Source: Nitrosococcus halophilus Nc 4 (GTDB lineage: Bacteria; Pseudomonadota; Gammaproteobacteria; Nitrosococcales; Nitrosococcaceae). Taken from it: a stretch of DNA of 64,000 bases. Position 1 is the first letter of the stretch. Every line of letters begins with the position of its first letter. The stretch spans positions 952,261-1,016,260 of the forward strand of contig NC_013960.1 of assembly GCF_000024725.1 (NCBI RefSeq). The letters run 5' to 3'. A program made the translations under genes and the position numbers. Positions 3,128-60,348 of this stretch are shown piece after piece. Below the pieces are notes generated by a model, which saw only the letters and a program-made list of their open reading frames with translations, was not told the DNA's origin and did no database searches.

Positions 3128-4279
3128 TTACGACTCAAACAAATCCCTATTAGGGGATAGAATTCTAAATCCGCTATTATTTATGAGTTTTGCACTTCTA
3201 GGGGATATATGTAGGTCTCCACGACATTCTACTAATTGCCTATTTTCGTGCGCATGGATAGCGTTCAGATAATCATCTCCAGATAATTCAAACGTAATAT
3301 TCCGCTTTTTCTCATTTTCTAGTTCAGTTACCGTAACCAGTCCAGATTCGCTGTTCTCATCGCGTTCTAATTTCTTAACTATACCAAGAATCTTGGTGTC
3401 TTGTAGTATATAATTATCCTTGAAATATTCGGAAGCTTCTTCCAAATAAGGTATATAATCAGAGGAAAATGAATGCTCTAATTTTATTTTATCGATGCTC
3501 TTCTCGGCTTTTGAGAGGGATATAGAGATAGAGAAATTACGAGCTTTGGTTTCTCCACTTAGGCCTATAAGGGCATCGCAAAAATTTGCGCTTACACCTT
3601 GCTCAACGGCCTTATCGAAAACAAACAAGCTCGATTTTCTCCTGTACTCTTCTACGGAATATGAAATCGCTTCTAAGCTTTTTGCTAGAGTATTCATAAC
3701 TGCGCGCGCAAAAGATACTCTCTCTAATAACTCTGACTGGGCTTCTTTATTTTGTAGTATCGGGGAAATTAAGTTAATTATATAGCTGCCTGCTTCAGTT
3801 TGCCCGAGCCTTACATTCCTTATATGATCTTTCGCTTTCTGAGGATAATACCCAGAGAAAAGTTTTTTCTTTGAAAGAGTTGAAAGTGTCACTGACGTAA
3901 TTAGAGCTTGTGCCTTTTTAATTAGCAATACTCCATCTTCTATGGGAATTGAGCCGTCTTTAACATCAGTATGGACAACTCGTATCTGTACGAGGTCGGC
4001 ATAGAAATTTGCAACGTCCTTTAATACATCGTCATAAGATCTTTCTTCGAAGTGAGAAAGTATATGAATTATATCCCAGACACGTTTCTTGTAATCCTTG
4101 AGATATTGCGCTTCTGGCTGAACCACCTCGAAATTTGTATATTTGGCTTCTGTTCTGTGCCAAATCGATGCAATCTCTCCTATTGAGCCTTCCTCTATCC
4201 ATCCATTGGATACCAAGTAGCCTCGGATTTGGTCCGGCGTAATTGCTTCAATACGCTTCAAGAGGGTAGAGTTGCTCAT
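3128..4279 (-). CDS. Unknown 383-residue protein paired with a DUF4365 gene
   Basis: I do not recognise the family. The protein is mostly helical (residues about 60-230), with an N-terminal region TPDQIRGYLVSNGWIEEGSI and a C-terminal beta-rich part around ITFELSGDDYLNAIHAHENR ending in SPRSAKLINNSGFRILSP. No membrane segment or nuclease motif is apparent. The start overlaps the stop of the DUF4365 gene by 4 bp, so the two are co-translated. The pair is much more AT-rich than flanking genes, suggesting separate acquisition. Position inside a phage immunity region suggests a defence or host-interference role, which is inference. Confidence 0.6.
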   Translation of the reverse strand: MSNSTLLKRIEAITPDQIRGYLVSNGWIEEGSIGEIASIWHRTEAKYTNFEVVQPEAQYLKDYKKRVWDIIHILSHFEERSYDDVLKDVANFYADLVQIRVVHTDVKDGSIPIEDGVLLIKKAQALITSVTLSTLSKKKLFSGYYPQKAKDHIRNVRLGQTEAGSYIINLISPILQNKEAQSELLERVSFARAVMNTLAKSLEAISYSVEEYRRKSSLFVFDKAVEQGVSANFCDALIGLSGETKARNFSISISLSKAEKSIDKIKLEHSFSSDYIPYLEEASEYFKDNYILQDTKILGIVKKLERDENSESGLVTVTELENEKKRNITFELSGDDYLNAIHAHENRQLVECRGDLHISPRSAKLINNSGFRILSPNRDLFES

Positions 4280-4773
4280 AAGTACTCACCCTTGCTAGCA
4301 AGGGTCATAAGTTCCACTAAAGTCTCTTTTGTCAGCCTTTGCTTTAGCGGAATATCAACGGTGACTTTTGTTTTATTATAGGTTTTAGGATGATTTCTGA
4401 TAGATACCCAGTAACATGAGTTTCTCAAGATTAACTCTTCATCCTTGTATTCTACCCAGTCCTGTACATTTTCTGGAATGACTAAGACGGCTAAGTATCT
4501 GGGACATAGAACATTATCTCCACGGAGATCATTATAGTTCTTTAGGGACAATGGAAATTTAATAACGTTACCGTTCAGCAGATCACGGGAGGTGCACTTT
4601 AGTTGTAATTCAATTTTCGGGTTTCTGAGTATTCCTTTGAAATCTTTCCCTATAAGCTCTAAGTCGATGCTGTCATCGTCTACAGATGGATGAGCATTAT
4701 TAAGGCCTGCTTGAGCTGCGATAGCCTTTATATAAGCCACACTAAATTGTTCTTTTTGTTGAGCAAGATCCAT
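4276..4773 (-). CDS. DUF4365 protein, PD-(D/E)XK-like nuclease fold
   Basis: 165 residues. The DUF4365 family is thought to have a restriction-endonuclease-like fold. The plausible active-site pattern is Asp in DDDSIDLELIG followed by Glu-x-Gln-x-Lys-like IELQLKCTS. Later segments (YLAVLVIPENVQDWVEY, CYWVSIRNHPKTYNKTKVTVDI) fit the family. It is first in a two-gene leftward operon with the unknown 383-residue protein. Likely a DNA-targeting effector with the partner as sensor or regulator; this is inference. AT-rich composition marks it as cargo. Confidence 0.65.
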   Translation of the reverse strand: MDLAQQKEQFSVAYIKAIAAQAGLNNAHPSVDDDSIDLELIGKDFKGILRNPKIELQLKCTSRDLLNGNVIKFPLSLKNYNDLRGDNVLCPRYLAVLVIPENVQDWVEYKDEELILRNSCYWVSIRNHPKTYNKTKVTVDIPLKQRLTKETLVELMTLASKGEYL

Positions 4774-9468: not shown

Positions 9469-9544
<76 letters not shown>

Positions 9545-9614: not shown

Positions 9615-10577
9615 CTATCTAAGTGGGGTCACCTTGAGTGGTTTTCTCTTGTAATGCCGATAGAGAGTCCGCCTGTCCTCGTGCCCCAGCAAGTTGTCGT
9701 CGCTCGCATCTGAGCCTGCGGTCGTCCTTAAATCCTTAAAGGCAAACCGCATGCTAGGATCAAGTCTGCCTTCTTGAATAGCTTTCCGCATAGCCTTCTG
9801 CCAGAGCGTTCTAAAGCCGTCTCCCGTGTATGGCTGGCCGTGTTTAGTGTGCAGAATCCAGAGTGTGGCGATGGTGCTCGGAAGGTTTTGAGCGCGATTG
9901 ATGGCCTCTCGAAGATCCTCGGTCCAAGAGAACATCAGTGTACGCCCCGTCTTGCTGGTACCAACCAGCAGGCCCTCCTCTTTGCAGTCGGTACGTTTCA
10001 GCTTTAGCACATCCCCCTGGCGAAGACCTGTGAGCAGCGCAATATCCATGGCGCATTGGACGACTTCCGGCATAACGTCATAGACTAGGCGGTATTGTTC
10101 CGGATCCACATAGCGCCCGGATGGTGTTTCCGTATTACGCTTAACGTGTCGGCAGGGGTTGTCTTTGGCAGCGCCCCAGCGAATAGCGTATGAAAATATA
10201 TGGGATAGCAAGGCCTTTTCCCTGTTGGCGCTCACTGGGGGCCGTCGGTCCATGTAAGCATAAATCTCAGGCGGGGTGAGGTCATTCGGCGGCATGTGTC
10301 CGAAAACGGCTCGGAGGGGGACCAACTGCTTTAGATTGTCTTTCTGAGTCCGGGGCGCTTTCTTTGGGATGACTTCTTTCTGGTATCGGTCCATCACTTG
10401 GCCAAGAGTCATCATGGGCCTAGGTTGGGTGTTGATTTCAGCATATCGAACCATGGCTTGATGATAGTCGCGGCCGAGGTTATGCCATTTCCCCTGGCGG
10501 TCCACAAAGAAGTAGGTGTTGTGGTTGTGGTACACTCGCTGAGGTAAATCTTTGCGACCTTTACGCTTCCTGCCCAT
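9615..10577 (-). CDS. int: Tyrosine recombinase (phage integrase)
   Basis: 320 residues. It catalyses integration and excision at tRNA-Lys. The N-terminal arm-binding region (RVYHNHNTYFFVDRQGKWHN) is followed by a SAM-like core-binding domain and a catalytic domain with Arg in LLTGLRQGDVLKL, Lys/Arg box in FAFKDLRTTAGSDA and nucleophile Tyr in LLGHEDRRTLYRHY. The usual His of the HxLR box is Lys, a substitution seen in related phage integrases. It is the last gene of the leftward operon and overlaps the excisionase-like gene. Confidence 0.93.
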   Translation of the reverse strand: MGRKRKGRKDLPQRVYHNHNTYFFVDRQGKWHNLGRDYHQAMVRYAEINTQPRPMMTLGQVMDRYQKEVIPKKAPRTQKDNLKQLVPLRAVFGHMPPNDLTPPEIYAYMDRRPPVSANREKALLSHIFSYAIRWGAAKDNPCRHVKRNTETPSGRYVDPEQYRLVYDVMPEVVQCAMDIALLTGLRQGDVLKLKRTDCKEEGLLVGTSKTGRTLMFSWTEDLREAINRAQNLPSTIATLWILHTKHGQPYTGDGFRTLWQKAMRKAIQEGRLDPSMRFAFKDLRTTAGSDASDDNLLGHEDRRTLYRHYKRKPLKVTPLR

Positions 10578-22103: not shown

Positions 22104-22136
22104 ATGGGTATGTTATTAACCAACCCCTCCCTGCAT

Positions 22137-22406
22137 TTGACAGTCGCGCCCGCTCGGGCCTATATTGACCCTGCCGCGGCAAAATCCGTGGCCGGGATTG
22201 ACAGCCCGAAAGACCATGAGGCGCAAACGCGCCGCCAACATCCGTTGGGTGCGTTTTTTTATGCCCGCAAGATTATCTATGGCGGGCCATTTCGGGAGAC
22301 CTTCGGGTCTGCCGGTGTCCTTGTGGGCCGGTCTGTCAACCCGTTATGGCCCGTCACCCTATTGACAGGGGGTGATGGCTCCAAAACTAACCGCAAGGAG
22401 TCCATC
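22137..22406 (+). promoter_or_regulatory. Antirepressor leader A: promoter, attenuator, structured RNA
   Basis: TTGACA (22137-22142) and TATATT with an 18-bp spacer give a strong promoter. About 90 bp later a hairpin with arms AACGC/GCGTT and CAAC/GTTG ends in a T7 run near 22255. Then follows TTATGCCCGCA, structured GC-rich DNA, and AAGGAG before the BRO start. Very similar architecture precedes 31142 and 54583. Translations in two frames resemble phage Ash-like leader proteins, so the region may be an antisense or attenuator RNA of the C4 kind; this is inference. Confidence 0.5.
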
Positions 22407-23165
22407 ATGACACCTATCACTCAAGGCACCACTGCGCCTGCCGTTTTTCAGTTCCAACAATCCTATCCCGTCCGCGTCATCGTCCTCGAGGGAGAACCCT
22501 GGTTCTGCCTGCGTGATGTGTGCGACGTATTGGAGATTAAGCAGCCAACAAAGGTCGTTTCTACCCAGCTAAATGAGGATGGGGTGAATAAAATTCACGT
22601 CACCGATTCGCTAGGAAGAAACCAAGAAACATGGTTTATCTCCGAACCCAACCTCTACCGGGTCATTTTCCGCAGCAACAAAAAAGAAGCCCGCCAGTTT
22701 CAAGACTGGGTCTTTGAAGAAGTCCTCCCGGCCATCCGCAAAACGGGCCGATACGACGCCCACGACTTTGAACCCGAACCCCGCCTCTCTTCCGCCCAAC
22801 GCCTTGAATTGGATCAAGCGATCAAACACGCCCTTACAGGTCTTTGGGACGAATGCAGCGACGAAACGGGCAGGCAGTGGGCCTGTAATCGGCTTCGAGT
22901 CATGCTTCATCTTCGCCGCATCGAGGACATGCATCCCGACCAACTGCCCTTGGCGTTCGCGGAGCTGGAGCGGCTGAAGGAGGACCTCAGCGCTTTTTTT
23001 GAGTACCGGGCAAAGGAGCGGCGCTTTCTTTGCCGAGAGATCATCGGCGCGGGCACGCCTTGGACGCCTCACCTGACTAAGCAATTGATGGCGGAGTTGA
23101 AGCAAACCGTCCCGCCCCGCCCGGATTGGCTGGAAATGCGCAAGAAACTGCTGAATCAGGATTAG
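22407..23165 (+). CDS. BRO-N antirepressor-like protein with shared C-terminal module
   Basis: 252 residues from ATG 22407, AAGGAG upstream. N-terminal BRO domain (VIVLEGEPWFCLRDVCDVLE, then WFISEPNLYRVIFRSNKKEA and WVFEEVLPAIRKTG), a DNA-binding fold found in phage antirepressors. The C-terminal about 130 residues (LDQAIKHALTGLWDECSDET to the end) is nearly identical at DNA level to the ORF6N protein at 31142-32203 and related to 53561-54583. Expected to inactivate or compete with the repressor. Confidence 0.8.
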   Translation: MTPITQGTTAPAVFQFQQSYPVRVIVLEGEPWFCLRDVCDVLEIKQPTKVVSTQLNEDGVNKIHVTDSLGRNQETWFISEPNLYRVIFRSNKKEARQFQDWVFEEVLPAIRKTGRYDAHDFEPEPRLSSAQRLELDQAIKHALTGLWDECSDETGRQWACNRLRVMLHLRRIEDMHPDQLPLAFAELERLKEDLSAFFEYRAKERRFLCREIIGAGTPWTPHLTKQLMAELKQTVPPRPDWLEMRKKLLNQD

Positions 23166-24225: not shown

Positions 24226-26184
24226 ATGACTCCATCCGCCAACCGTCAAGGAAAACTTGACGCTTCACCCCTCTACTCAGCCTTCGCCCGGGGCATTGCC
24301 CCCCGGCGCAAAATCAGCGTCTCCCAATGGGCGGACGGCCACCGGGTGCTGTCCACCAAGGAAAGCGCCGAGCCGGGACGCTGGCGGACCTCGCGGAACG
24401 GGCTGCTGCGCGAGCCCATGGACTGCTTCTCGGCCCGCTCGCCGGTTCAGGAAGTCGTGCTCAAATTCCCCATCCAGTTCGGCAAATCGAGCGTGGCCCA
24501 AAACGTCCTCGGCTACGCCATGACCGAACGGCCCGGCCCCATCATGGTCGCCCTGCCGGCGGAAGTCTCCATGAACAAATGGATCGTGCAAAAGCTCAAT
24601 CCCATGCTGGAGTCCACCACCGTCCTGCAGGACGTGCTCACCAGCACCGCCAGTCGGGACGGGGCCAATCGCCGGGAATTCAAGGAATTCGCCGGCGGCC
24701 AGCTCTACCTGGAACACGCCGGCAGCCCCGCCCGGCTCAAGTCCACCAGCGTCAAGCTGCTCATCGTCGACGAGCTGGACGAATTCGCCGCCAATCTCAA
24801 GGGCGGCGACGATCCCGTCGCCCTCCTGGAAGGGCGGGTCTCCGCCTTTATCTCCGTCGCCAAGCAACTTTACATCGGCACGCCGACCATTTTAGGGCTC
24901 TCCCGGATTGACGAAAAATACCAAGACAGCGACCAGCGCCGCCCCTACGTGCCGTGCCCCCACTGCGGCCACCAGCAGCCCCTGGAGTGGAAGGGTCTGC
25001 AATGGCTCATCGACGAGACCAAGAAAAAGATTATCAGCGTCGCCTACGTCTGCCGGGACTGTGGCGCGCTCATCGACGAAAGCCACAAGCCCCAAATGCT
25101 GGCCAACGCCCGTTGGGTCCCAGAAAATCCCGGCCACTGGCGGCGGGGCTATACCGCCAATTGCCTCTACTATCCCGTGGGCCTCGGCCCCAACTGGAAG
25201 CAACTGGCCCAGAACTGGCTGGAAGTCCAGGACGATCCCGCCCGGCTCAAAACCTTCGTCAACGACCGCCTGGCCGAAACCTGGGAAGATCCCACCACCC
25301 GCCTGCTCCGTCACAACGCCATCGCCGAGCGGGCCCAACCCTACCCCCTGCGCACGGCCCCCGAGGGCGTCCTGGCGGTCACCGCCGGGGTGGACACCCA
25401 AGACAACCGCCTGGAAGCGGTCATCATCGGCTGGGGCCGCAAAATGCGCTTCTGGGTGCTGGATTACGCCGTCCTCTACGGCGATCCGGCGGAGGAGGGC
25501 GTCTGGACCGCTCTGACCGATCTGCTCAACCGGCCCCTCCAACACGAAAACGGCGCGCTTCTTCAGGTGCTGGCCACCGCCATCGACATGGGCGGCCACC
25601 GCACCGAAGCGGTCAAGTCCTACGTCCGGGACCGGCGCATCGCCCGCCCCATGGCCATCAAAGGGGCCAGCGCCAACACCGCCCCGATCCTGGGCAAGCC
25701 CACCATGGCCGACGTGGATTGGCGGGGCCGCTACGACAAGCGAGGGGTGATGATTTACCAAGTGGGCACCGTGGCCGCCAAACACTGGCTTTATGCCCGC
25801 CTGTCCCGAGATACCGAGAAGGAACCGGAGCAACGCCTTTGCCATTTCTCCAGCGAACTGCCGCCGGAGTTCTTCCCCGGCCTCACCGCCGAGACCTACA
25901 ACCCGGCCAAAAACCGTTTTGAACTGAAGCGCAACGTGAGGAACGAACCGCTTGATACCACAATTTATTCATTCGCCGCCGCCCACCATCCGGAACTTCG
26001 TCTCCACCGGGCCACCCACGCCGACTGGGATCGCTACCAGCGGCTCATCCAGGCCCAGCAGGGTAAAAACAAAGTCGAGAGCAGGAACCCCACGCCAACC
26101 CAGCCGACCCAGCGGCCCAGAAGATCCGCGCCCCGTCCGGTGACACCTTCGCTGGGGAACTCCGATTGGAACAGCAAACTTTAG
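24226..26184 (+). CDS. Terminase large subunit (GpA family)
   Basis: 652 residues, typical GpA length. It cuts concatemers and powers packaging. ATPase region about 60-260: Walker A-like FPIQFGKSSVAQN, Walker B VKLLIVDELDEF. A zinc-binding insertion CPHCGHQQ with CRDCGA lies at about 243-280. Nuclease half contains VTAGVDTQDNRLEAVI and LATAIDMGGHRT with catalytic Asp residues, and a C-terminal basic proline-rich tail. Confidence 0.92.
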   Translation: MTPSANRQGKLDASPLYSAFARGIAPRRKISVSQWADGHRVLSTKESAEPGRWRTSRNGLLREPMDCFSARSPVQEVVLKFPIQFGKSSVAQNVLGYAMTERPGPIMVALPAEVSMNKWIVQKLNPMLESTTVLQDVLTSTASRDGANRREFKEFAGGQLYLEHAGSPARLKSTSVKLLIVDELDEFAANLKGGDDPVALLEGRVSAFISVAKQLYIGTPTILGLSRIDEKYQDSDQRRPYVPCPHCGHQQPLEWKGLQWLIDETKKKIISVAYVCRDCGALIDESHKPQMLANARWVPENPGHWRRGYTANCLYYPVGLGPNWKQLAQNWLEVQDDPARLKTFVNDRLAETWEDPTTRLLRHNAIAERAQPYPLRTAPEGVLAVTAGVDTQDNRLEAVIIGWGRKMRFWVLDYAVLYGDPAEEGVWTALTDLLNRPLQHENGALLQVLATAIDMGGHRTEAVKSYVRDRRIARPMAIKGASANTAPILGKPTMADVDWRGRYDKRGVMIYQVGTVAAKHWLYARLSRDTEKEPEQRLCHFSSELPPEFFPGLTAETYNPAKNRFELKRNVRNEPLDTTIYSFAAAHHPELRLHRATHADWDRYQRLIQAQQGKNKVESRNPTPTQPTQRPRRSAPRPVTPSLGNSDWNSKL

Positions 26185-26504: not shown

Positions 26505-26792
26505 ATGAGGACCGACAACACCCAAGACGACGCCGCCGTGGAGCTGCGAAACATCCTCACCGCCGCCATCGGTCAGGCCTTCGACATGAACGAGAACGTG
26601 GCCCTGCCCCTGGCTGAGCGGATCGCCGAGCATTTGTTCACCCTCGCGGGGGGTAGCAAGCTGTACGTGCCTAAGCTAGACCGGCAGCAGCGCAATGCCG
26701 CCATTCTGGAACAGTTTAATGGCCGTAATGCCGCCGAGCTGTGTGGCCGGTATGGGATTTCTAAAGCCCAGTTCTATCGGATTTTGGGGTAG
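26505..26792 (+). CDS. Mor-like transcription activator
   Basis: 95 residues. C-terminal HTH LDRQQRNAAILEQFNGRNAA then ELCGRYGISKAQFYRILG matches the Mor/C family of Mu-like phages, which switch on middle or late genes. In this prophage it is the best candidate for a late activator; the palindrome at 32841-32868 in front of the head genes could be its site. Inference on target. Confidence 0.7.
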   Translation: MRTDNTQDDAAVELRNILTAAIGQAFDMNENVALPLAERIAEHLFTLAGGSKLYVPKLDRQQRNAAILEQFNGRNAAELCGRYGISKAQFYRILG

Positions 26793-27295: not shown

Positions 27296-27841
27296 TTGTC
27301 AGATAATATACCGGAACTAATACTTAGACCTATAAAGCCCGAGGATAAACCCTCGGGCTTTTCTCTTGGCTCAGAAGAAGCCGCTCCACTAAAGGCGTTT
27401 CTTCGGAAAGATGCGAAGGTATACCATTCAGAGAATATCTCAAAAACTTTCGTATTGGTTGAAGCAATCCCCCAACCACGTATCAAAGGCTATTTGACGC
27501 TCGTTTGTAGCGAGATTTCCCATGAAGGTTGCATTGAACTCCAAGAGTGCCCACAGGCAAGTAAATATAATTATCCTGCTATAAAGTTAGCTCGCCTTGC
27601 CATACATAAAGACATTCAAGGGGCGGGATATGGTAGAGGCATGATTGACTGGTGCATAGCGCATGTGACTGAAAATATAATGCCCCATACCGGTTGCCGC
27701 TTTCTGGTGGTTGACTCAAAGCCTTCTGCCGTTAAGTTTTATGAGCGGTCCGGGTTTACGATACTGGATACATCGGGTAATCGTAGTAGCCCCTCCCCGG
27801 TCATGTATATCGATTTGCATAAGGTTAAAAGCAGTATTTAA
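27296..27841 (+). CDS. GNAT-family acetyltransferase, probable toxin
   Basis: 181 residues from a TTG start. Acetyl-CoA-binding motif A is seen in LARLAIHKDIQGAGYGRGMI (Q-x-x-G-x-G/A type) and the C-terminal beta-strand pair in FLVVDSKPSAVKFYERSGF. The size and arrangement after a small basic protein resemble GNAT toxins that acetylate aminoacyl-tRNA. A ribosomal or small-molecule acetyltransferase is the alternative. Confidence 0.7.
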   Translation: MSDNIPELILRPIKPEDKPSGFSLGSEEAAPLKAFLRKDAKVYHSENISKTFVLVEAIPQPRIKGYLTLVCSEISHEGCIELQECPQASKYNYPAIKLARLAIHKDIQGAGYGRGMIDWCIAHVTENIMPHTGCRFLVVDSKPSAVKFYERSGFTILDTSGNRSSPSPVMYIDLHKVKSSI

Positions 27842-27903
27842 TTGACAACCTTTACCCTTTCGGCAACTCTAATCCTTTAAGGGGTTTGCGAGGTGGTTTT
27901 GTG

Positions 27904-28263
27904 ATGACGGTCATTGTCCAAGAGGTGTACACGGCTTTCAAGGAAGCGGGGGTCAGCGAGGAAAGCGCCCGAAGCGCGGCGGAGGCGCTTACCGGCTATG
28001 GCGACAGGTTCCATGATTTGGAGCGGGAGATGGACCGCCGTTTCAACGAAGTGGATCAGCGCTTCAATGAGATAACGCGGGAAATGGACCGCCGGTTTAA
28101 TGAGGTCGATCACCGCTTCAATGAGGTGGATCAGCGCTTTAATCGTGTGGATGTGGAGTTCGAAAAATCTAAAGGGGTGCAACGGCTGCTCCAGTGGATG
28201 CTGGGCTTTAACCTGGCGTTGACGGCCGCCGTGCTGTTTTTGCTGCTTAGGTCAGGGATTTAG
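27904..28263 (+). CDS. Coiled-coil membrane-anchored protein with RFNEVD repeats
   Basis: 119 residues from ATG 27904. After VYTAFKEAGVSEESARSAAE come repeated heptad-like units MDRRFNEVDQRFNE, MDRRFNEVDHRFNE, VDQRFNRVD, forming a coiled coil, then a C-terminal membrane helix MLGFNLALTAAVLFLLLRSG. Resembles DUF1640/CCDC90-type proteins, often carried by mobile elements. Function unknown. Confidence 0.6.
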   Translation: MTVIVQEVYTAFKEAGVSEESARSAAEALTGYGDRFHDLEREMDRRFNEVDQRFNEITREMDRRFNEVDHRFNEVDQRFNRVDVEFEKSKGVQRLLQWMLGFNLALTAAVLFLLLRSGI

Positions 28264-28454: not shown

Positions 28455-29330
28455 TTAAACTGCCATAGGCAAAGCGGAAGTTGCCTTATCAGAAATTTCG
28501 AGCGTGTCTGGATAAATAAGAATCTCTTTCCCTCTACGACGCTTGTAAGCACTATAACTTAGGTAAAACTCCTTCTGCCTCATACTTGAGTAAAGGTGTC
28601 GGATAGATTCGACATCATCATACGTCATGATCCATGGAAATTGCGCCTGTAATTCTAGATATTGAGCAAGCAATCTATGATCCTCGTGAGAAAACCTATT
28701 CATGTACAGTTTAGCCCCCTTAACGTAGTAAGGAGGATCCAAGTAAATGAATAGCCTTCCGCTCGCTCTCACTCTCTTACCGATACCCTTTAACAACTCG
28801 ATTCCATCTTTCTCATAAATATTAATCCTTTCAGAGTACATTCCTATTCTTCTAATTCTTCGCGCGAGTGTATCACGATTAAACCTGGCATCAATCTTGT
28901 AGTCTCCTGATTGCTTGTAGCCCCCAATTGGCCCGCCATTATGGATAATTCCGGAACGAGTTGTTCTGTTTAAGTAAAACGTTGCGAATCCAAGGCTAAG
29001 TTTATCTTTGCAATCACAAGCTTCGTATATTTTTCTTTGTCGCCGCCACTCTCTAACACTCAACTCTGCATCATAAATAAGGCTAATAAAATGATCATTG
29101 TATTCAGTCACAGCTCGCCAAAAAGATGAGATTCTAGGATCCGCATCGTTTATCGTTATTGACTCAACATATCCTTCAAAAAGCAAGCGAAGTGCTGCGC
29201 CCCCACCACCAGCATATGGCTCTATATAATGAGGCTCAATTAATTCATTGCTTCTCATAACTTCAATCAAAAAAGAGGAAAGAGCAGCCTTTCCACCAGG
29301 ATAGCGCAATGGACTATAATGTTCTGCCAT
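28455..29330 (-). CDS. D12-class DNA adenine-N6 methyltransferase
   Basis: 291 residues. Dam-like: target/AdoMet motifs PLRYPGGKAAL at the N-terminus, IEPYAGGGGAALRLLF, catalytic LDPPYYVKG and YDDVESIRHLY. Transfers methyl groups to adenine in a short DNA site. It is AT-rich compared with phage genes and lies 24 bp after the ParB-like gene on the same strand, in the middle of rightward genes, so the pair is a cargo operon. An upstream restriction gene is not evident. Confidence 0.88.
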   Translation of the reverse strand: MAEHYSPLRYPGGKAALSSFLIEVMRSNELIEPHYIEPYAGGGGAALRLLFEGYVESITINDADPRISSFWRAVTEYNDHFISLIYDAELSVREWRRQRKIYEACDCKDKLSLGFATFYLNRTTRSGIIHNGGPIGGYKQSGDYKIDARFNRDTLARRIRRIGMYSERINIYEKDGIELLKGIGKRVRASGRLFIYLDPPYYVKGAKLYMNRFSHEDHRLLAQYLELQAQFPWIMTYDDVESIRHLYSSMRQKEFYLSYSAYKRRRGKEILIYPDTLEISDKATSALPMAV

Positions 29331-29354
29331 ATCTGTTCTTAAGAATTATTCTTA

Positions 29355-30854
29355 TTAATTTAATATGATTTCTAACATTGGTTCCGCTCGTTGCCAAAGT
29401 ACTCTTAAATCTCCTTCCGTCGGAGTAACATAAGGATTATGTGTAAACTCATTAAAGCCATCAATGGTAATAAAATACAAAGTATCCCTAGATGCCAGCG
29501 ATCTAACAGATTTATAACCATCAGCCGTCATTCCAGGGAAAATGCGCTTATCGACCGCATAGCTGATCATATCCCTTAATCGGGGTGTCCAGTCTGGATT
29601 ACGAGTGCGCTGCTTTCCATTTTTATCAAAATGATTGCAAACTGCTTTCGCATGACCCTCTTTCTTTATATACTCCCACAATGCTATATCAATTAAAACT
29701 CGGAGCATCACTCCAGTGGAATTTCTTTGTTCTATGATCTTAAAAGATTTTATCTCCTTGAAGAGCGTGCTGATCTTGCTATTTCTAGATCTACATACAA
29801 ACCCACGAGGCACAACTGAAGGAGACGGCTTCGGAGAGTACTTCCTCTGCGCGGCAGATCTTTTTGTCCCAGCATCAGGTACAATAAAGTCATCTTTCCT
29901 TCCCAAAAATTCATCTGGATCAAAAGAGCCCCGCTTATTCGTTTTCGGAAGTTTTTCCTCTACCTCCTTAATATAACCTTTGAACCCGGATTCATCATTT
30001 ATCTTCCGAGTCATCCCTTTTGTTGTCGCTACATCTGACACAACTTGGGAAAGAACTGCCTTAAACCTATCTGGATGAACAATTCCCCGAAAGCCTTTTT
30101 CATCATTGAGTTCTATACCAAGAAACTTTCTTCCTACCTGCGACTCTATAAACCGTTCCAAGGTGGTTAATGGAAACCTTGGATCTTCTATCTTTTGACG
30201 GATTTCTGCATCCAGGTCAAGCGATAAGGCAATTCGATGAAGTTTCTCAGAACGCAGAAAATTTCGAACCTGTGCCAATGAAACACCTATTCTTTCAGAA
30301 ATTTCTAACGGAGTGAGTCCTTCCTCAACTAGCTCATAATAAAATCGAGCTTGTTGAAGAGAAGACCACTTACGTTTGGCATCTCCAGTATGCAGTGCAG
30401 CGATTATAGGCACTGCTGACAGCCTATCTGGGACAATTGCAACATCAATTCTCTCTAGCTCTGATAGGTCAGTCTCGGAGGACAGCTTGCGAAAGTAGTT
30501 GACCTGTGTGTCAGTAGGGGCTAGTTCAGGCTTCAACAGCAATTTTATTGCTGCAAGGCGTCGATTACCTTCCAGAACAGTAAATCGCGGTCCGTTCGAG
30601 ACTACTACCAGGCGTTCGTTCGCAAATAATCCTAGCTTAGCTATAGAAGATGCTAGGCTTTTAACGTTTTCATGGGCAAGTAGCTCTTGTAGAAGCTGCC
30701 TCTGGTTATCCGAACGCCTATCGGAAGGAATTCTAGTGTTCTTCGGATCAAGCAGAAGACTTCCTACTTTTACTTGAGCTGATTTGGTTTCAACCGCCAC
30801 ATCGCCTCTCTTTTTTATGTGATATTCAATACTGCTTAAGCGAGCTATAGTCAC
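29355..30854 (-). CDS. ParB/Srx-domain protein paired with methylase
   Basis: 499 residues. N-terminal ParB-like domain: KSLASSIAKLGLFANERLVV and the box-II motif VLEGNRRLAAIKLL. A ParB-type HTH, LTPLEISERIGVSLAQVRNF, sits near residue 195. The C-terminal 110 residues (FNEFTHNPYVTPTEGDLRVL) resemble HEPN-like domains found at the ends of defence proteins, but no R-x4-H active site is clear. First gene of a two-gene operon with an adenine methylase. May be a nuclease or CTP-switch sensor governed by methylation; inference. Confidence 0.7.
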   Translation of the reverse strand: MTIARLSSIEYHIKKRGDVAVETKSAQVKVGSLLLDPKNTRIPSDRRSDNQRQLLQELLAHENVKSLASSIAKLGLFANERLVVVSNGPRFTVLEGNRRLAAIKLLLKPELAPTDTQVNYFRKLSSETDLSELERIDVAIVPDRLSAVPIIAALHTGDAKRKWSSLQQARFYYELVEEGLTPLEISERIGVSLAQVRNFLRSEKLHRIALSLDLDAEIRQKIEDPRFPLTTLERFIESQVGRKFLGIELNDEKGFRGIVHPDRFKAVLSQVVSDVATTKGMTRKINDESGFKGYIKEVEEKLPKTNKRGSFDPDEFLGRKDDFIVPDAGTKRSAAQRKYSPKPSPSVVPRGFVCRSRNSKISTLFKEIKSFKIIEQRNSTGVMLRVLIDIALWEYIKKEGHAKAVCNHFDKNGKQRTRNPDWTPRLRDMISYAVDKRIFPGMTADGYKSVRSLASRDTLYFITIDGFNEFTHNPYVTPTEGDLRVLWQRAEPMLEIILN

Positions 30855-30894: not shown

Positions 30895-31141
30895 TTGACA
30901 ACCCGCTCCCCTTCCGCTACCGTTAATTTAGGTGCTGAACACACCTCACAGGCGGCTAACCGCACCCGTCAGACTTGCGGTTTTTTTGTGCCCACAGATT
31001 ATCGAGTACTTATGGCCGGGTGGCGCGCAGCTATACAAGACCCGAAAGGGAAAATCTGCGGGCGGCCCTGTGACCGTGTTCAAGCGCCCGGCCGCCTCCT
31101 ACACAGGGGGCAACAAATGAACGAAATCACAGGAGACTGCT
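30895..31141 (+). promoter_or_regulatory. Antirepressor leader B: promoter, terminator, structured RNA
   Basis: TTGACA at 30895-30900 begins a leader that shares CCCTTCCGCTACCGTT with leader C. A terminator AACCGCA...TGCGGTT with T7 follows near 30960-30990, then a GC-rich structured stretch (GGCCGGGTGGCGCGCAGC to CGCCCGGCCGCC) before the ORF6N start. Short frames across it resemble phage Ash-like peptides. Organisation equals leaders A (22137) and C (54830). Confidence 0.5.
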
Positions 31142-32203
31142 ATGAACACTATAGCGCCCATCACCATTAACAACACTCCGCTTTCCCCTATCGTTTTTAA
31201 CAACACGCCAGTCATCACCCTAGCGATGATGGACAAGGTTCATGAGCGCCCTGAAGGTACAGCCCGCCGCAACTTCAACACCAACAAAGATAAGCTGATT
31301 GAAAGGGAGGATTATTTTCACGTTACCCGGAAAACCCCAATGCCCGAAAAACGGACATTGGACGAAATTCGTACATTGGGAATCCCACCGAAAGGAATCA
31401 TCCTCCTCACCGAATCAGGCTACCTGCTTTTAGTTAAGAGTTTCACGGACGATCTAGCTTGGAAAGTCCAGCGGCAATTAGTGAACGGGTACTTCAAGGC
31501 CATTGGCCGAGACAACCTTAACACTGAGCAGGAACCACCCCACCTTCCCTACGCCACCAAAGAACAACGCGAACCCCTCATCAAAGCCGTGCGCCGTCTG
31601 GTCAGCGTCTCCAACGCCAAGGGTAGGCCCCTGACCCATGAAGACGCCCACAGCATCATCAACCTGAAAATGGGCGTGGACAGCGTGGAAGCTCTCACCC
31701 TGGAGCAAATCCCCAAGGCCATGACCCTGGTGGGCGAAATCCTGGAGCGGGTCGTCCTGGAAGGGGAGTACATCGGCAAGGATGACGCCCCTTACCCTGA
31801 TCCCGAATGTTACCTTTCTCCGGCCCAGCGCCTCGAATTGGATCAGGCGATTAAACACGCCCTTACGGGTCTCTGGGACGAATGCAGCGACGAAACGGGC
31901 AGGCAGTGGGTCTGTAACCGGCTTCGAGTCATGCTTCATCTACGCCGCATCGAGGACATGCATCCCGACCAACTCCCCTTGGCGCTGGCGGAGCTGGAGC
32001 GGCTGAAACAAGATCTCAGCGCTTTTTTTGAATTTAGGGCAAAGGAGCGGCGCTTTCTTTGTCGGGAGATTATCGGCGCGGGCACGCCCTGGACTCCTCA
32101 TCTGGCCAAGCAATGGAAGGCGGAGCTGAAGCAGACCGTGCCGCCCCGCCCGGATTGGTTGGCCATGCGCGAGAAACTGTTGCGCCAAGCCGAGGATAAC
32201 TAG
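31142..32203 (+). CDS. ORF6N antirepressor with shared middle and C-terminal modules
   Basis: 353 residues. N-terminal ORF6N DNA-binding domain (VITLAMMDKVHERPEGTARR, FHVTRKT, ILLTESGYLLLVKSFTDDLA, WKVQRQLVNGYF). Middle module about 135-215 (ATKEQREPLIKAVRRLVSVS then VDSVEALTLEQIPKAM) matches the P22-type protein at 53561-54583. The C-terminal module matches the BRO protein at 22407-23165. Probable antirepressor. Confidence 0.8.
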   Translation: MNTIAPITINNTPLSPIVFNNTPVITLAMMDKVHERPEGTARRNFNTNKDKLIEREDYFHVTRKTPMPEKRTLDEIRTLGIPPKGIILLTESGYLLLVKSFTDDLAWKVQRQLVNGYFKAIGRDNLNTEQEPPHLPYATKEQREPLIKAVRRLVSVSNAKGRPLTHEDAHSIINLKMGVDSVEALTLEQIPKAMTLVGEILERVVLEGEYIGKDDAPYPDPECYLSPAQRLELDQAIKHALTGLWDECSDETGRQWVCNRLRVMLHLRRIEDMHPDQLPLALAELERLKQDLSAFFEFRAKERRFLCREIIGAGTPWTPHLAKQWKAELKQTVPPRPDWLAMREKLLRQAEDN

Positions 32204-32292: not shown

Positions 32293-32733
32293 ATGCCGAA
32301 TCCTACCCAAGACTATTATGCCTGGACTCAAGAGACTATTGAGAAGCTGCGTCAGGGCAAATGGAATGAGGTCAATATGGAGGACTTGATCGAGGAGATT
32401 GAAGATATGGGGGCCGGTGAGCGCAACGAGCTAGAGAATAGACTTGTGGTGCTACTGGCTCATTTGCTTAAGTGGCGATACCAGCCGGAGCGTAGGAGCC
32501 GAAGCTGGCGCCTGACCATTGAAGAGCAGAGACAGCGAATTGCGAGACGTTTGAAGAAAAGTCCGAGTTTGCGGCCACGTCTGCCCGAATTGGGCGAGGA
32601 AGACTCGTATCCTATCGCGGTCATCGTGGCGGCAAGGGAAACAAACCTAGAAAAATCCACCTTCCCCGCCACCTTCGAGGAAACGGGCTGGACCTGGGAG
32701 CAGGTGCAGGACATGGAGTATCTTCCAGACTAA
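32293..32733 (+). CDS. DUF29 protein
   Basis: 146 residues. DUF29 signature YYAWTQETIEKLRQGKWNEV then NMEDLIEEIEDMGAGERNEL and HLLKWRYQPERRSRSWRLTI. Common in bacteria with many mobile elements, especially cyanobacteria and gammaproteobacteria; function unknown. Own hairpins on both sides suggest an independent cargo gene. Confidence 0.8.
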   Translation: MPNPTQDYYAWTQETIEKLRQGKWNEVNMEDLIEEIEDMGAGERNELENRLVVLLAHLLKWRYQPERRSRSWRLTIEEQRQRIARRLKKSPSLRPRLPELGEEDSYPIAVIVAARETNLEKSTFPATFEETGWTWEQVQDMEYLPD

Positions 32734-32840: not shown

Positions 32841-32907
32841 AGTCTCATTTTGGGCCTGAAATGAGACTCCATCCTAGCGGACAATGCCCCCAATCAACTT
32901 TTGGGGG
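32841..32907 (+). promoter_or_regulatory. Late-region palindrome and ribosome-site hairpin
   Basis: AGTCTCATTT (32841-32850) and AAATGAGACT (32859-32868) form a perfect 10-bp inverted repeat directly before the structural genes, a candidate binding site for a late activator. Next, CCCCCAA (32887-32893) pairs with TTGGGGG (32901-32907), covering the GGGGGAA ribosome site of the first head gene, so translation may be regulated. Confidence 0.45.
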
Positions 32908-32914
32908 AATCGCC

Positions 32915-33145
32915 GTGAGTACCGCCACCGACATGCTCGCCAAGTATCTGGCCGCTGAATCCGCCTTAACGGAAGGCAAAAGTATCAGTTGGGTGGATGG
33001 CCGCCAGCTCACCCGTGAAGATCTAGCCGAAATCCGCAAAGGCCGCAAGGAATGGGAACGGCGGGTGGCCGCCGAGGAGGCCCAGGCCGCCGGAGCGCCC
33101 ACCATCGGCGGGTTAGGCTATGCCGTGGCCCGGTTGGACGGCTGA
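32915..33145 (+). CDS. gpW-like head-tail joining protein (DUF6148-like)
   Basis: 76 residues from GTG 32915 with GGGGGAA upstream. Helical and small: MLAKYLAAESALTEGKSISW then RQLTREDLAEIRKGRKEWER, with a Gly-rich end. Size and place before the portal equal lambda gpW. Stop overlaps the lysozyme start (TGATG). Confidence 0.65.
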   Translation: MSTATDMLAKYLAAESALTEGKSISWVDGRQLTREDLAEIRKGRKEWERRVAAEEAQAAGAPTIGGLGYAVARLDG

Positions 33146-33561
33146 TGGAAGACCTCTTCCAGCAACTCAAGCGCCATGAGGGCCTGCGGCTCAAGCCTTA
33201 CCGGGACACGGTAGGCAAGATGACCGTGGGTTATGGCCGCAATTTGGAGGACCGGGGCATCTCCGAGCAAGAAGCGGAGCTGATGCTGATGAACGACGTT
33301 CTCCATTTTCAGTCCCGGCTATCACAATATTCCTGGTTCCTGGTCATGAACGAAACCCGCCAGGGGGTCATTATCAACATGGCCTATAACCTGGGGATGG
33401 GCGGTCTGCTCAGCTTCAAGCGCATGATCGCCGCCCTGGGAGATCGCAATTACACCCTGGCGGCTTGTGAAATGGTGGATTCACTTTGGGCGAAACAAGT
33501 GGGGAACCGCGCCGCGGAGCTGGCCGAGCAAATGCGCCTGGGCTGGAGGATTCCCTTTTGA
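33145..33561 (+). CDS. Phage lysozyme (GH24, T4-type endolysin)
   Basis: 138 residues from ATG 33145. Catalytic Glu lies in LKRHEGLRLKPYRDTVGK, followed by MTVGYGRNLEDRGISEQEAE, the glycosidase signature. It hydrolyses peptidoglycan. No signal peptide or SAR anchor, so release needs a holin (37406-37819). Its location between head genes rather than in a lysis cassette is unusual. Overlaps portal start. Confidence 0.88.
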   Translation: MEDLFQQLKRHEGLRLKPYRDTVGKMTVGYGRNLEDRGISEQEAELMLMNDVLHFQSRLSQYSWFLVMNETRQGVIINMAYNLGMGGLLSFKRMIAALGDRNYTLAACEMVDSLWAKQVGNRAAELAEQMRLGWRIPF

Positions 33562-35036
33562 ACCCCATCGATAGGCTCGTCGAATACTTTGCCCCTCAGG
33601 CGGCCCTCAAGCGCCACGCCGCCCGGCAGGTGCTGGCCTATTACGAGGCCGCCCGGCCCTCCCGCAAGCGCAAGTTTTATCGGGATAACGCCGGACCCAA
33701 CCGCCAGACGGAACAGGGCGCGGTCCCCATTCGCATTCAGGCCCGGCACCTGGAGCAAAACCACGATCTCACTCGCGGGGCCATCCGTACTCTGGTGAAT
33801 AATGTCGTTGGTCCGGGCGGGATTGGCATCGAGCCTCAGCCCCGCCGGGCGGATGGCAGCATTCACGAAGAATACGCCAATATCTTGCTGGAAGCCTGGC
33901 GGGACTGGTCACGCAAACCGGAAGTCACCCATCGCCATCATTTTTCCAAGGTTCAACGTATTGCCGCCCGCTCCTGGATACGGGATGGTGAAATGTTCGC
34001 CCAAATACTCCCCGGGCGGGTGCCGTTTCTCGATCACGGTACTCGAGTCCCGTTCTCTCTGGAATTGATCGAGGCGGATATGGTGCCCTTCGAGTTTACC
34101 GACGAAGGGCGCGGTATCCGGCAAGGAGTCCAGCTCAACCAGTGGGGCCGCGCTATCGGCTATTGGGTCTATAAATCCCATCCCACCGATGGGCTCCGGT
34201 TCGTCAGCCAGCGGGATTTGAAATTCGTTCCCGCCAGCCGGATGCTTCACCCCGCCTTTATCGACCGTATCGGCCAGGTGCGGGGCGTGTCCGAGTTCGC
34301 CTCGGTGATTACCCGGTTGGAGGACATCAAGGACTACGAAGAGTCCGAGCGGGTGGCCGCCAAGATCGCCGCCATGCTCACCGCCTACGTCAAGCGGGGC
34401 AATCCGGACCTGTACGACCCCAACGCCTTGCCCCGGGACGAAGAAGGCAACCCCCTGCCTCGGGAGATTAACTTCCAGCCCGGCATGGTCATTGACACCC
34501 TCAACATGGGAGAAGAGATCGGGCTCATCGACTCCAAGCGGCCCAATCCCAACGTGGTCACCTTCCGCCAAGGCCAGCTCAAGGCCTTCGCCGCCGGTTT
34601 GGGGGCCAGCTATTCCAGCGTCAGCCGGGATTACGATGGTACCTATTCCGCCCAGCGGCAGGAGCTGGTGGAGCAATGGGTCCATTACGCGGTCCTGACC
34701 GATGACTTTGTGGGGGATTTCATCCAGCCCATTTGGGAGGAATTCGTCAATGTGGCCGCGCTTAGCGTCGCGCCGGTGCCCGCCGATGTGGTGCCCGGCA
34801 CGGAAAACGACGCCAGTTACATCGGTCAATCCATGCCTTGGATCGACCCTCTCAAGGAAGCCATGGGCTATCTGCGTCTGGTGCGGGCCGGTTTCGCCTC
34901 CGAGGCGGAGGTGATCCGCAAGCGGGGCCGCAACCCCAAGGACGTGCTGGAGCAAATCAGCGATTTCCGCAAGCGAGCCAAGGAGCGGGATTTGACCTTG
35001 GATTCCGACGCTTCCGTCTCAAGCAGCACACGGTAA
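33558..35036 (+). CDS. Lambda-type portal protein
   Basis: 492 residues from TTG 33558 (GGAGGA eight bases upstream; overlaps lysozyme stop). Forms the dodecameric DNA gate of the head. Family blocks: RHLEQNHDLTRGAIRTLVNN VVG, WIRDGEMFAQILPG, IEADMVPFEF and SYSSVSRDYDGTYSAQRQE near the C-terminus. Length is usual for lambda gpB-like portals. Confidence 0.9.
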   Translation: MNPIDRLVEYFAPQAALKRHAARQVLAYYEAARPSRKRKFYRDNAGPNRQTEQGAVPIRIQARHLEQNHDLTRGAIRTLVNNVVGPGGIGIEPQPRRADGSIHEEYANILLEAWRDWSRKPEVTHRHHFSKVQRIAARSWIRDGEMFAQILPGRVPFLDHGTRVPFSLELIEADMVPFEFTDEGRGIRQGVQLNQWGRAIGYWVYKSHPTDGLRFVSQRDLKFVPASRMLHPAFIDRIGQVRGVSEFASVITRLEDIKDYEESERVAAKIAAMLTAYVKRGNPDLYDPNALPRDEEGNPLPREINFQPGMVIDTLNMGEEIGLIDSKRPNPNVVTFRQGQLKAFAAGLGASYSSVSRDYDGTYSAQRQELVEQWVHYAVLTDDFVGDFIQPIWEEFVNVAALSVAPVPADVVPGTENDASYIGQSMPWIDPLKEAMGYLRLVRAGFASEAEVIRKRGRNPKDVLEQISDFRKRAKERDLTLDSDASVSSSTR

Positions 35037-55366: not shown

Positions 55367-56500
55367 TCAATCTTCGATCTCAGCGGCGAACCGCCCTATG
55401 TCTTCGAGCGTCTCGTGCATCCGCCAAATGCGCCATCCGGCTTTCCGTGCAGTGTCTCTATCTTCGTCTGAAATGGCGAGCCCCACCCGCTTTTGAGGCC
55501 ATGCGAGCTCAAGGTTAGCCACTACTGCATCCTTGGTATCCTGTACATCGAAGCCCACCTCCGGGACATTCGTTTTCCAATGGCAGCAGGCATCCAGCAC
55601 CCCCCTCAGGCCAGGGTCACAAAGCTCAAATATTTTGTTCCATCCGACGTTATGCAGCAAACCTTGCTCTCGGCGCAGACGATTGATCGTTTGCATACCC
55701 TCATGGGATACACACAAATGCCCATGATGGGGCTGTTGCCGATGGCAGGCCGCACACAGCGCCATAAGGTTGCTTTCTCGGTTATCACTTTTGACGCCGT
55801 TGCGGTGATGACTATGGAGAAGCTCCTTGCACGATCTTAAGTTGACGCCGCAGGACTCGCAGGTGAATTTTTTGCTGTCCTTGTAGCGAGCCGTCACTTG
55901 AGGCCAATCAGCAGTGTAATCTTCTTCCTCTTTCCGCCCAGCCCAACGCCGCGGCAAGTGGCTGAAGAATGAACTGTAGGTCGAATAAAATTCTTGGATA
56001 TCGAAGCTTTGGGCAATCTCGATTTTCCTCCTGTGCTGAGCGCCCTTGTAATTCAGTGCCTCAAGACAGTTCTGACAAACCTGAAGCCGGACGTACCCCT
56101 CCATGTTCTGCCTAGTGTGCCAATCACGTCCGACGATATAAAATTGGCCATTAAGTCTATGTGTTACCACGTAGCGTTCGAATCTACCTTTTGCCCTCAT
56201 ATTTTTAAGCGTTTTGCAATCGGCGACATGAAATTTTCTTCCTTGCGAACCATCCTCTAGTACCTTCTTTATCGAATTGCCTTGGTCTTGGATATATAAC
56301 AGTATCTGCCGTCCCTTGTAGCTAAGCAGGCCGTTATTGCTTTCAACTTCCTTAAGGTTGAGTAGCTCAATACCTTCTTCCAGCTTTATATCAATCGGGT
56401 CCAGGGGTTCGGCTTGATGCTCCAGTGAAAATGCTACAGGCTCCGCGCCCATGCGCCGAACGGCAGCATGCAGAGCGCTCAAGTCCACATTCAAGCGCAC
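55367..56500 (-). CDS. zorE: Zorya type II effector ZorE (HNH nuclease)
   Basis: 377 residues from GTG 56500. Residues about 70-190 contain a zinc-like unit (YVVTHRLNGQFYIVGRDW, LQVCQNCLEALNYKG). The HNH nuclease at about 215-270 is FTCESCGVNLRSCKELLHSH then HRNGVKSDNRESNLMALCAA CH, with the HNH His, Asn and four zinc Cys. C-terminal part (KRVGLAISDEDRDTARKAGW) resembles the DUF559-like end of host nucleases. Third gene of the Zorya operon, overlapping zorB by one base. Confidence 0.85.
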   Translation of the reverse strand: MRLNVDLSALHAAVRRMGAEPVAFSLEHQAEPLDPIDIKLEEGIELLNLKEVESNNGLLSYKGRQILLYIQDQGNSIKKVLEDGSQGRKFHVADCKTLKNMRAKGRFERYVVTHRLNGQFYIVGRDWHTRQNMEGYVRLQVCQNCLEALNYKGAQHRRKIEIAQSFDIQEFYSTYSSFFSHLPRRWAGRKEEEDYTADWPQVTARYKDSKKFTCESCGVNLRSCKELLHSHHRNGVKSDNRESNLMALCAACHRQQPHHGHLCVSHEGMQTINRLRREQGLLHNVGWNKIFELCDPGLRGVLDACCHWKTNVPEVGFDVQDTKDAVVANLELAWPQKRVGLAISDEDRDTARKAGWRIWRMHETLEDIGRFAAEIED

Positions 56501-57213
56501 TATGACGGCTCCTCGATAATTTTGCGGATTTGCATCTCGGCATTGGTGATCACCCGGAAGCTAACCCGGCGGGAGCGGGCGCGGTCTTCGTTGCCTTGAT
56601 CATCCAGCACCAGTCGTGAAGAGGAGAAGCCGACAGCGGCAAAGTGCCGCTTGACCCAGCCCCGATCGCTTTCCACCTTTGGTAGCTCATACACGTAGTG
56701 CAGCACCGACCGCGTTCTGCCCTGAGACAGCAACATATTGAGGAAATAAGCCTCAGTTTCGCTAACTTGGTTATTCCAGACACTGCTGGTATGACCCTCG
56801 ATGCGGATCTCGTCAATGGAGTCCTTGTAATGTTTTAGAATGACCAGATAGCGAGGGAAGAAGTCTGCAAGGATTTCCTTGAAGCGCTGCCGTATTTCCG
56901 TCGACCCCGTGGCGAAAAGGACCTCCGGGGACTGGAACTCAAAGGCCAGAGTATCGGAATCGATTCGGGCGTCCCAGCGCTCGAGATCCTTTTCGAACTC
57001 CTTCATCAGCGCCTCATAGATAGCAACCTGGTTTTCCTGATAGGCCACCGCGATCTCCTTGATCCGGTCGCGCTCCAGAAAAGCATTTCGCATCAGGGCA
57101 ATAGCAATGAACATGAACACTATCATCAGCCCGGCCATCAAATCGGAGACCGAGAGCCAGTGAGCCCCCTCGCCCTCGCCACTGACCCGTGGTTTGCCGA
57201 ATATGGTTTCCAT
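56500..57213 (-). CDS. zorB: Zorya ZorB (MotB/OmpA-like stator subunit)
   Basis: 237 residues. One N-terminal membrane helix, SDLMAGLMIVFMFIAIALMR, with the Asp of SDLMAG as the likely ion-binding residue. The periplasmic OmpA/MotB-like peptidoglycan-binding part has LFATGSTEIRQRFKEILADF, IDEIRIEGHTSSV and LSQGRTRSVLHYVYELP. With ZorA it forms a proton-driven motor sensing phage attack. Ten bases after zorA. Confidence 0.9.
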   Translation of the reverse strand: METIFGKPRVSGEGEGAHWLSVSDLMAGLMIVFMFIAIALMRNAFLERDRIKEIAVAYQENQVAIYEALMKEFEKDLERWDARIDSDTLAFEFQSPEVLFATGSTEIRQRFKEILADFFPRYLVILKHYKDSIDEIRIEGHTSSVWNNQVSETEAYFLNMLLSQGRTRSVLHYVYELPKVESDRGWVKRHFAAVGFSSSRLVLDDQGNEDRARSRRVSFRVITNAEMQIRKIIEEPS

Positions 57214-57221
57214 TGCTTGCC

Positions 57222-59574: not shown

Positions 59575-60348
59575 TTATCTCTCTGCATCCTCCTGAGTAG
59601 TATTACCAGAGTGTACGGGGGAGAGTAATTCAGGAAGAATCACCACGGGGCGGCGCGAGGGCGTGATTCTCTCCGCGCCTCCCAGGCTGAGGTTTAATCC
59701 TGCTTTAATGATTCTCAGGTCCGCTATTTTGTGATGAAAGCGTCTAAATTTCTCCTTGAGGTCGACATCAACGAAGGCTGTTTGAAACTGCCCGTCTTGA
59801 TGCATGGACAGCATCTCCCGCGTGATTTCAATCTCATGGGCCCCCATAAACGTTTGGACCAAGGTTTGAAAAGTCAACGGCTTTTTATGGTCCAGGTGAC
59901 TTTCATGGAAGGCGACACGCTCCCCGGTGATATCACATTTCACTTTCCCCTCGGCATCGGCATGGATAGCAAAATGGTTTTTCTTCATGAGGCGCAAGTC
60001 TTCATCCACCGCTTGGCGGCAAGCCTCAGCAAACTCCTGGTACAAGGATTTCTCTTTGGCTCGAATTGCTTCTCGGTAGGAGAAATCGGTCACGCTGCCA
60101 TCCTGGCGTTCTATCCAAAAGCAGCTCGTGGTCTTCGCAGTTTTATCTTTATAAAGCCGCTTGACCCCACCGCCTATTTTGGTCACTGCCCGGGGATGCC
60201 GCTCAAGCAGGGCAAGCAACATTTCAAAGTCCTCGCCGAGGATCTCTTCCCCGTCTCGATACCTTCCCAGCATCGCGCGGAAATAGGTGATGGCGTCTTG
60301 TTGTGAATGAAAGGGGATACTATTAATTATCAGTGGCTGACGTGCCAT
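59575..60348 (-). CDS. DCL/DUF3223-like protein with HNH-like motif
   Basis: 257 residues. The N-terminal part FHSQQDAITYFRAMLGRYRD then EDFEMLLALLERHPRAVTKI and GGVKRLYKDKTAKTTSCFWI is the DCL/DUF3223 domain. The C-terminal half has CDITGERVAFHESHLDHKKP, which resembles an HNH-type nuclease (Cys, His-Asp-His), then helices. Such proteins occur in defence islands; activity unknown. Confidence 0.65.
   Translation of the reverse strand: MARQPLIINSIPFHSQQDAITYFRAMLGRYRDGEEILGEDFEMLLALLERHPRAVTKIGGGVKRLYKDKTAKTTSCFWIERQDGSVTDFSYREAIRAKEKSLYQEFAEACRQAVDEDLRLMKKNHFAIHADAEGKVKCDITGERVAFHESHLDHKKPLTFQTLVQTFMGAHEIEITREMLSMHQDGQFQTAFVDVDLKEKFRRFHHKIADLRIIKAGLNLSLGGAERITPSRRPVVILPELLSPVHSGNTTQEDAER

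Follow-up and report, generated by a model that had tools for sequence, protein, structure and literature searches.

We conclude that a pair of genes carried by a prophage of Nitrosococcus halophilus is, by sequence-family assignment, a further member of the already described PD-Lambda-5 system. With a probability of roughly 0.6, we propose that this prophage PD-Lambda-5 is a methylation-gated toxin, in which the methylase would mark DNA, the ParB part would survey it and the HEPN-like domain would attack RNA. The window, that is, the whole stretch of DNA that was analysed, is 64,000 nucleotides long and contains the pair as follows:

28455..29330, minus strand: PD-Lambda-5 B, D12-class adenine-N6 DNA methyltransferase (assigned by PADLOC PDLC04018 and Pfam PF02086)
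29355..30800, minus strand: PD-Lambda-5 A, with a predicted ParB-like NTPase-fold/DNA-binding part (~1-290) and a predicted C-terminal HEPN-like domain (~337-481) (PADLOC, AlphaFold2 model)
30801..30854, minus strand: 5' extension of the mechanical open reading frame, probably a non-coding leader, with no counterpart in the relatives L021, L022 and L004

Both genes matched their PADLOC families over nearly the entire profile. The ParB-like protein aligned to PDLC03998 with an E-value of 4.9e-58 (residues 26-498 of the 499-aa frame to positions 5-464 of 466), and the methylase to PDLC04018, the PD-Lambda-5_B model, with 1.2e-109 (residues 1-284 to positions 1-280 of 291). The PADLOC-DB models matching the ParB-like protein at E-values up to 1 numbered 26, and 24 of the 25 listed were PD-Lambda-5_A. 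These matches support the original prediction of a methylation-linked defence pair. PD-Lambda-5 was described in 2022 from a functional phage-defence screen of E. coli strains, and anti-phage activity is established there for the E. coli system (Vassallo et al., PMC9519451). By analogy with this published relative, defence activity would be expected of the N. halophilus pair. Among the portions of open-licence PMC articles covered, we found no worked-out mechanism for PD-Lambda-5 beyond a one-sentence view in PMC9519451, repeated in PMC10799925.

The pair consists of two open frames on the minus strand separated by 24 nt, one of 291 aa starting with ATG (28455-29330) and one of 499 aa starting with GTG (29355-30854). 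A ParB-like protein of 499 residues had been announced; the open frame is real, and the likelier gene is one of 481 aa beginning at GTG 30800 (29355-30800). The start is probably GTG 30800 rather than 30854, because the relatives from Billgrantia (L021, 481 aa) and Marinobacter (L022, 481 aa), together with L004 (489 aa), have their first residue at the equivalent of codon 19, and because a purine-rich AGAGAGG lies immediately 5' of this GTG. Residue numbers of the ParB-like protein are therefore counted from GTG 30800 (481 aa), unless the 499-aa frame is named. Strand and the 24-nt gap suggest that the ParB-like gene and the methylase gene are co-transcribed. A promoter scan returned 6 promoter-like sites against 5.4 expected, no excess over shuffled sequences, and terminator-like sites numbered 8 against 3.1 expected. 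As had been claimed, the pair is AT-rich and inverted relative to the late genes: GC content is 0.409 for the methylase and 0.424 for the ParB-like gene, compared to 0.641 for the terminase large subunit (TerL), 0.616 for the portal gene and 0.575 for the region 18470-52319, and TerL and portal are encoded on the plus strand.

The predicted structure of the ParB-like protein points to a DNA-binding part of the ParB type. Its AlphaFold2 model, built from a 40-row alignment, had a mean pLDDT of 89.8 and a pTM of 0.66; confidence drops in the linker formed by residues 303-321. Foldseek returned 22 matches under 0.001, which were ParB, Spo0J, Noc and KorB chains. KorB was also the top match in a second fold comparison (8qa9_B, Z 11.6 over 198 residues, model residues 6-288), where the model further resembled Noc, ParB, Srx and SerK. 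The ParB-like box that had been read from the sequence, VLEGNRRLAAIKLL, was found in the 499-aa frame. R80 and R81, which we take to be the arginines of ParB box II, are conserved in all 39 rows having a residue there. Both the ParB fold, as modelled, and a conserved arginine pair are thus present, as in the ParB/Srx NTPase superfamily. Sequence profiles gave fainter signals: the Pfam and NCBIfam cut-offs for ParB were not reached (HTH_ParB 0.013, TIGR00180 0.00016; no PF02195 match listed), and a PDB sequence profile search with the ParB alignment returned weak ParB matches N-terminally, a designed protein for the middle and no match for the HEPN-like part.

The C-terminal domain looks HEPN-like in fold, with a catalytic signature that is not the classical one. 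Among the 50 fold matches listed, the seven falling in residues 337-481 were all HEPN-type entries: 2jpu (Z 8.6), 2q00 (7.7), Csm6 8jh1 (7.6), 1wwp (7.5), 8xeh (7.0), 8yuf (6.8) and 8xdj (6.8). These values of 6.8-8.6, obtained with the full-length model, are modest for a helical domain, as helical bundles reach them by chance. Chain D of 8xeh is presumably a HEPN chain, and the matched part of Csm6 presumably its HEPN domain. 2q00 and 1wwp are given as HEPN in a table of PMC3710099, and 2jpu and 2q00 represent one and the same target. In the 40-row alignment, which includes L045 and L086 although the C-terminal profile found no domain in them, E349 is conserved in 36 rows, R367 in 38 and H454 in 39. 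The Rx4-6H motif of classical HEPN RNases was present in just one of the 39 rows having the conserved histidine; N/H/D/G/Q-x3-H and a distant R367 are seen instead. RNase catalysis may consequently differ or be lost, given the absence of Rx4-6H in 38 of these 39 rows. Fold comparison therefore backs the HEPN-like C-terminus of the original prediction, without the catalytic motif that the name would classically imply.

The second protein is a D12-class methylase by family match (Pfam PF02086, 1.9e-13). Its DPPY motif is intact, as in 14 of 14 aligned sequences, and against the PDB its alignment matched 7m6b best (3e-32), followed by the DpnII methylase 2dpm (3.6e-7). Mrr acts on methylated DNA, and the mrr-deleted E. 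coli host of the published system would fit an active adenine methylase. No restriction endonuclease was found beside the methylase in the TerL-to-portal frames run against family libraries.

We examined 102 loci (L001-L102), gathered by searches with the ParB-like protein and then with an alignment, the latter contributing the best 80 of 225 viral relatives; a scan of the genome collection with the single ParB-like protein yielded 2 loci. Some ParB-like relative is carried by 17 of the 369 genomes sampled from the same class, the source genome included. The D12 methylase is directly adjacent in 55 of the 56 loci that have the C-terminal domain, the window itself excluded: downstream on the same strand in 53, downstream and convergent in 2, and missing in one, L088, which ends at a contig end. 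These 56 loci represent 54 distinct proteins, and 43 of them lie outside the profile used for recognition. The suspicion that relatives of the two genes might rarely be neighbours is thereby refuted for relatives of full architecture. Chance adjacency was rejected as well, since in 80 control phage loci chosen by their portal relatives (1,135,719 bases) the methylase profile matched in 3 loci and the ParB profile in none. Leaving the window aside, 16 of the 21 loci in the first set of relatives had a methylase; L011, L015, L017, L018 and L019 matched neither methylase nor C-terminal domain, L011 being cut by a contig end. The same pair occurs in Marinobacter phage AS1 as AS1_27 and AS1_26. At 596-2601 of L013 the order is swapped, with the methylase placed upstream, not downstream, of the ParB-like gene.

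A sister clade lacks the HEPN-like domain. The ParB-like protein had no detectable C-terminal domain in 45 of the 102 loci, several of them truncated at contig ends or matching only weakly. D12 methylase was out of reach in 26 of these 45, with a C5 methylase instead in 19 rows. A gene for a further protein, X, occurs in 36 of these 45 loci and is absent from all 56 that have the C-terminal domain, as counted by X profile matches anywhere in the fetched locus (our 'REase' label). Where it could be placed, X is the product of a gene of ~300-350 aa directly downstream of the ParB-like gene, usually followed by a convergent methylase. The methylases linked to X are D12 in some loci and C5-cytosine in others (PF00145, 5.1e-62 in L080). 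No match above cut-off was obtained for X in Pfam (5 members), PADLOC (5) or NCBIfam (4). Its alignment shows invariant acidic residues and a near-invariant Q and K, and its model (pLDDT 78, pTM 0.83) was closest to MspJI in Foldseek (1.7e-4), both matches under 0.001 being MspJI. In the second fold comparison, every one of the first 28 rows was a nuclease, and 27 were restriction or nicking endonucleases, led by SdaI (Z 6.8), MspJI (6.7) and FokI (6.2); these values, at most 6.8, lie below the 8 that marks the tool's confidence level. X is thus predicted from its model to have a restriction-endonuclease-like fold, and X with a D12 or C5 methylase looks, at the level of predicted structures, like restriction-modification.

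The two clades separate in a quick tree of the ParB part (99 rows, long branches, midpoint root; L002, L017 and L040, at <250 aa, were left out). X with a methylase accounts for 35 rows (19 C5, 16 D12) and HEPN with D12 for 55; one or both marks are missing in 9. All 36 X rows fall within one group of 38 rows (SH-aLRT 99), which contains none of the HEPN rows. Members of the sister clade include E. coli phage WPhi (gp98/gp96/mth) and Pseudomonas phage D14A, which matched the X profile at 1.8e-107 and 4.3e-54 and whose methylases are 83% and 62% identical to the C5 enzyme of L080. In WPhi, gp96, annotated as 'hypothetical', is homologous to X (gp98, gp96 and mth occupy 96-3266 of L104), and, judged by the predicted fold of X, the WPhi cassette resembles restriction-modification linked to a ParB-like protein. 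This cassette matched 139 of 5426 E. coli genomes, 103 of them with at least 80% of its length; the 8 rows listed with annotation read ParB N-terminal domain-containing protein, hypothetical protein and DNA cytosine methyltransferase. In the parts of open-licence PMC articles covered, no description of a cassette of ParB, nuclease and methylase was found beyond the view in PMC9519451 and the table in PMC3710099.

Our proposal for the mechanism is as follows. The D12 methylase would mark adenines on host and prophage DNA, while the ParB-like protein would survey DNA through its ParB-type nucleotide-binding part and its helix-turn-helix part. Incoming phage DNA without the mark, or a phage that disables the methylase, would be the trigger. 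The C-terminal HEPN-like domain would then be released to attack RNA, and the infection would be stopped or the infected cell killed or arrested. Gating by methylation, sensing by the ParB part and the targeting of RNA are what we infer; the ParB part could act as a nuclease or a CTP switch, as the original prediction had it. The sister clade supports gating, because effector and methylase type are swapped while the ParB part stays, as expected of a gate; methylation-gated sensing with exchangeable effectors would account for this pattern. T-even phage DNA is modified, and the strong published effect of E. coli PD-Lambda-5 on T-even phages therefore fits simple sensing of unmethylated DNA less neatly. 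The missing classical HEPN motif and the modest Z-scores of both effectors also speak against a methylation-gated toxin. A broader version, on which we put even odds, would make the ParB-like protein a general gate between self and non-self with plug-in effectors, HEPN or PD-(D/E)XK-like, and with m6A or m5C as the mark. If this holds, ParB-gated restriction systems would make up a broader family that includes immunity by cutting DNA as well as by cutting RNA. The comparison with the sister clade turns the mechanism of PD-Lambda-5 into a testable idea; it is our main new argument and worth following.

The strict one-to-one adjacency (55 of 56) would also fit a PrrC-like guard, in which binding by the methylase keeps the ParB-HEPN protein inactive and a phage that inhibits the methylase sets the toxin free. 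This has a precedent in the PrrC/PrrI model and in the linkage of HEPN to restriction-modification, as set out in PMC3710099. We nevertheless find it unlikely: the first 290 residues have a predicted DNA-binding fold of the ParB/KorB type, and the ParB part of the sister clade pairs with D12 and C5 methylases alike, a pattern better explained by a protein that reads DNA than by one that binds a single methylase.

The genomic setting bears on a further alternative. The surroundings of the pair form a prophage, with an integrase beside a tRNA-Lys, a CI-type repressor, a primase, TerL, a portal and a tail protein, and the landmarks used here are:

9615..10577, minus strand: phage integrase beside tRNA-Lys (9469-9544) (phrog_1 9.1e-39, PF00589 1.9e-6)
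24226..26184, plus strand: phage terminase large subunit, TerL (phrog_15 6.3e-206)
26505..26792, plus strand: Mor-family transcription activator, left edge of the cargo site (PF08765 9.2e-12)
32861..33145, plus strand: small pre-portal gene, right edge of the cargo site (no Pfam match)
33486..35036, plus strand: phage portal protein (phrog_21 2.9e-106)
27296-27841, 27886-28263, 31142-32203 and 32293-32733: cargo neighbours of the pair, namely GNAT, coiled-coil, ORF6N and DUF29

TerL was also found in 58 of the 80 portal-relative loci, which served as the comparison set for this site. The distance between TerL and portal has a median of 749 bases in these 58 loci and exceeds 3 kb in one (L106); in the window it is ~7.3 kb. 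Within the stretches covered, a relative of Mor is present in 46 of the 58 and one of the small pre-portal gene in 54, and relatives of the ParB-like protein, the methylase and GNAT in none. We therefore regard the pair and its neighbours as cargo of this site. At the same site, L106 (on the same contig as L002) carries a BRO antirepressor, sub-threshold DUF4145/HepT matches and HicB/HicA, and its contig has a ParB-methylase pair of its own at another position. The cargo at this site thus varies between at least two phages of the group, in which the pair occurs at differing sites.

Several regulatory genes and RNAs were seen in the same region. Antirepressor-type genes occur four times in the prophage region (Bro-N 22104, Ant 23274, ORF6N 31142 and P22_AR_N 53561). 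An Rfam match to sRNA-Xcc1 (82.8 bits; 31014-31101, plus strand) lies just upstream of the ORF6N gene at 31142 and may be the leader of this antirepressor gene. Matches to C4 antisense RNA, its a1/b1 targets and isrK (22160-22361, plus strand) lie within the 5' portion of frame 22104-23165, in which the Bro-N domain does not start until residue 123, after the RNA matches.

HicA/HicB, found at the corresponding site of L106, is a toxin-antitoxin pair, and the N. halophilus genes are likewise prophage-borne and strictly linked. An addiction module, with the methylase as antidote and the ParB-HEPN protein as poison, would retain the prophage and give phage defence as a side effect. We consider this improbable in view of the origin of the E. 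coli relative in a phage-defence screen (PMC9519451), although the two readings are compatible.

KorB, the top structural match, is a repressor, and a KorB-like ParB with an orphan methylase could control the phage or its maintenance. We set this partition or regulatory reading aside as very improbable: none of the 29 window frames scanned had a ParA-type Pfam match, the methylase is a linked gene in 55 of 56 relatives, the C-terminus is HEPN-like, and the family's defence phenotype weakens it further. Orphan methylases are common phage genes, and one shielding the phage genome from host restriction, with the ParB-like protein as an accessory, is scarcely credible either, given the HEPN-like domain, the near-perfect linkage (55 of 56) and the published defence activity.

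Other defence genes lie nearby in the window. PADLOC identified a Zorya type II set at 55367-59042 on the minus strand:

57222-59042, minus strand: ZorA2 (2.4e-218)
56500-57213, minus strand: ZorB2 (9.1e-104)
55367-56500, minus strand: ZorE2 HNH (3.4e-161)

Further PADLOC defence-type matches, to HamC2, PDC-S18, PDC-S31 and the PDC-M02 A/B pair, flank the prophage on both sides (59575-60348, 62024-62956, 63056-63778 and 3128-4773, minus strand).

Among known systems, E. coli PD-Lambda-5 shares with the N. halophilus pair two adjacent genes, carriage by a prophage and nearly full-length matches to the A and B models; no difference of kind was seen in this comparison, which was made through the PADLOC models. 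PrrC/PrrI, as presented in PMC3710099, is alike in coupling a HEPN effector to a methylation system, whereas PrrC has an ABC-type NTPase part and a full type I restriction-modification system and the Nitrosococcus pair comes without a restriction subunit. The table in the same paper (Anantharaman et al. 2013) includes a fusion of HEPN with ParB (Saro_3948) and a HEPN gene that shares its operon with genes for ParB and DNA methylase (MAE_28990); these ParB-HEPN fusions and HEPN-linked restriction-modification systems are alike by the description in that table. The cassettes of WPhi (AY135739) and D14A likewise combine a methylase with a homologue of the ParB-like protein within a single phage cassette, but no HEPN-like domain was detected in their ParB protein, they encode the restriction-endonuclease-like fold, as predicted, in a protein of its own, and their methylase is convergent and of the C5-cytosine type.
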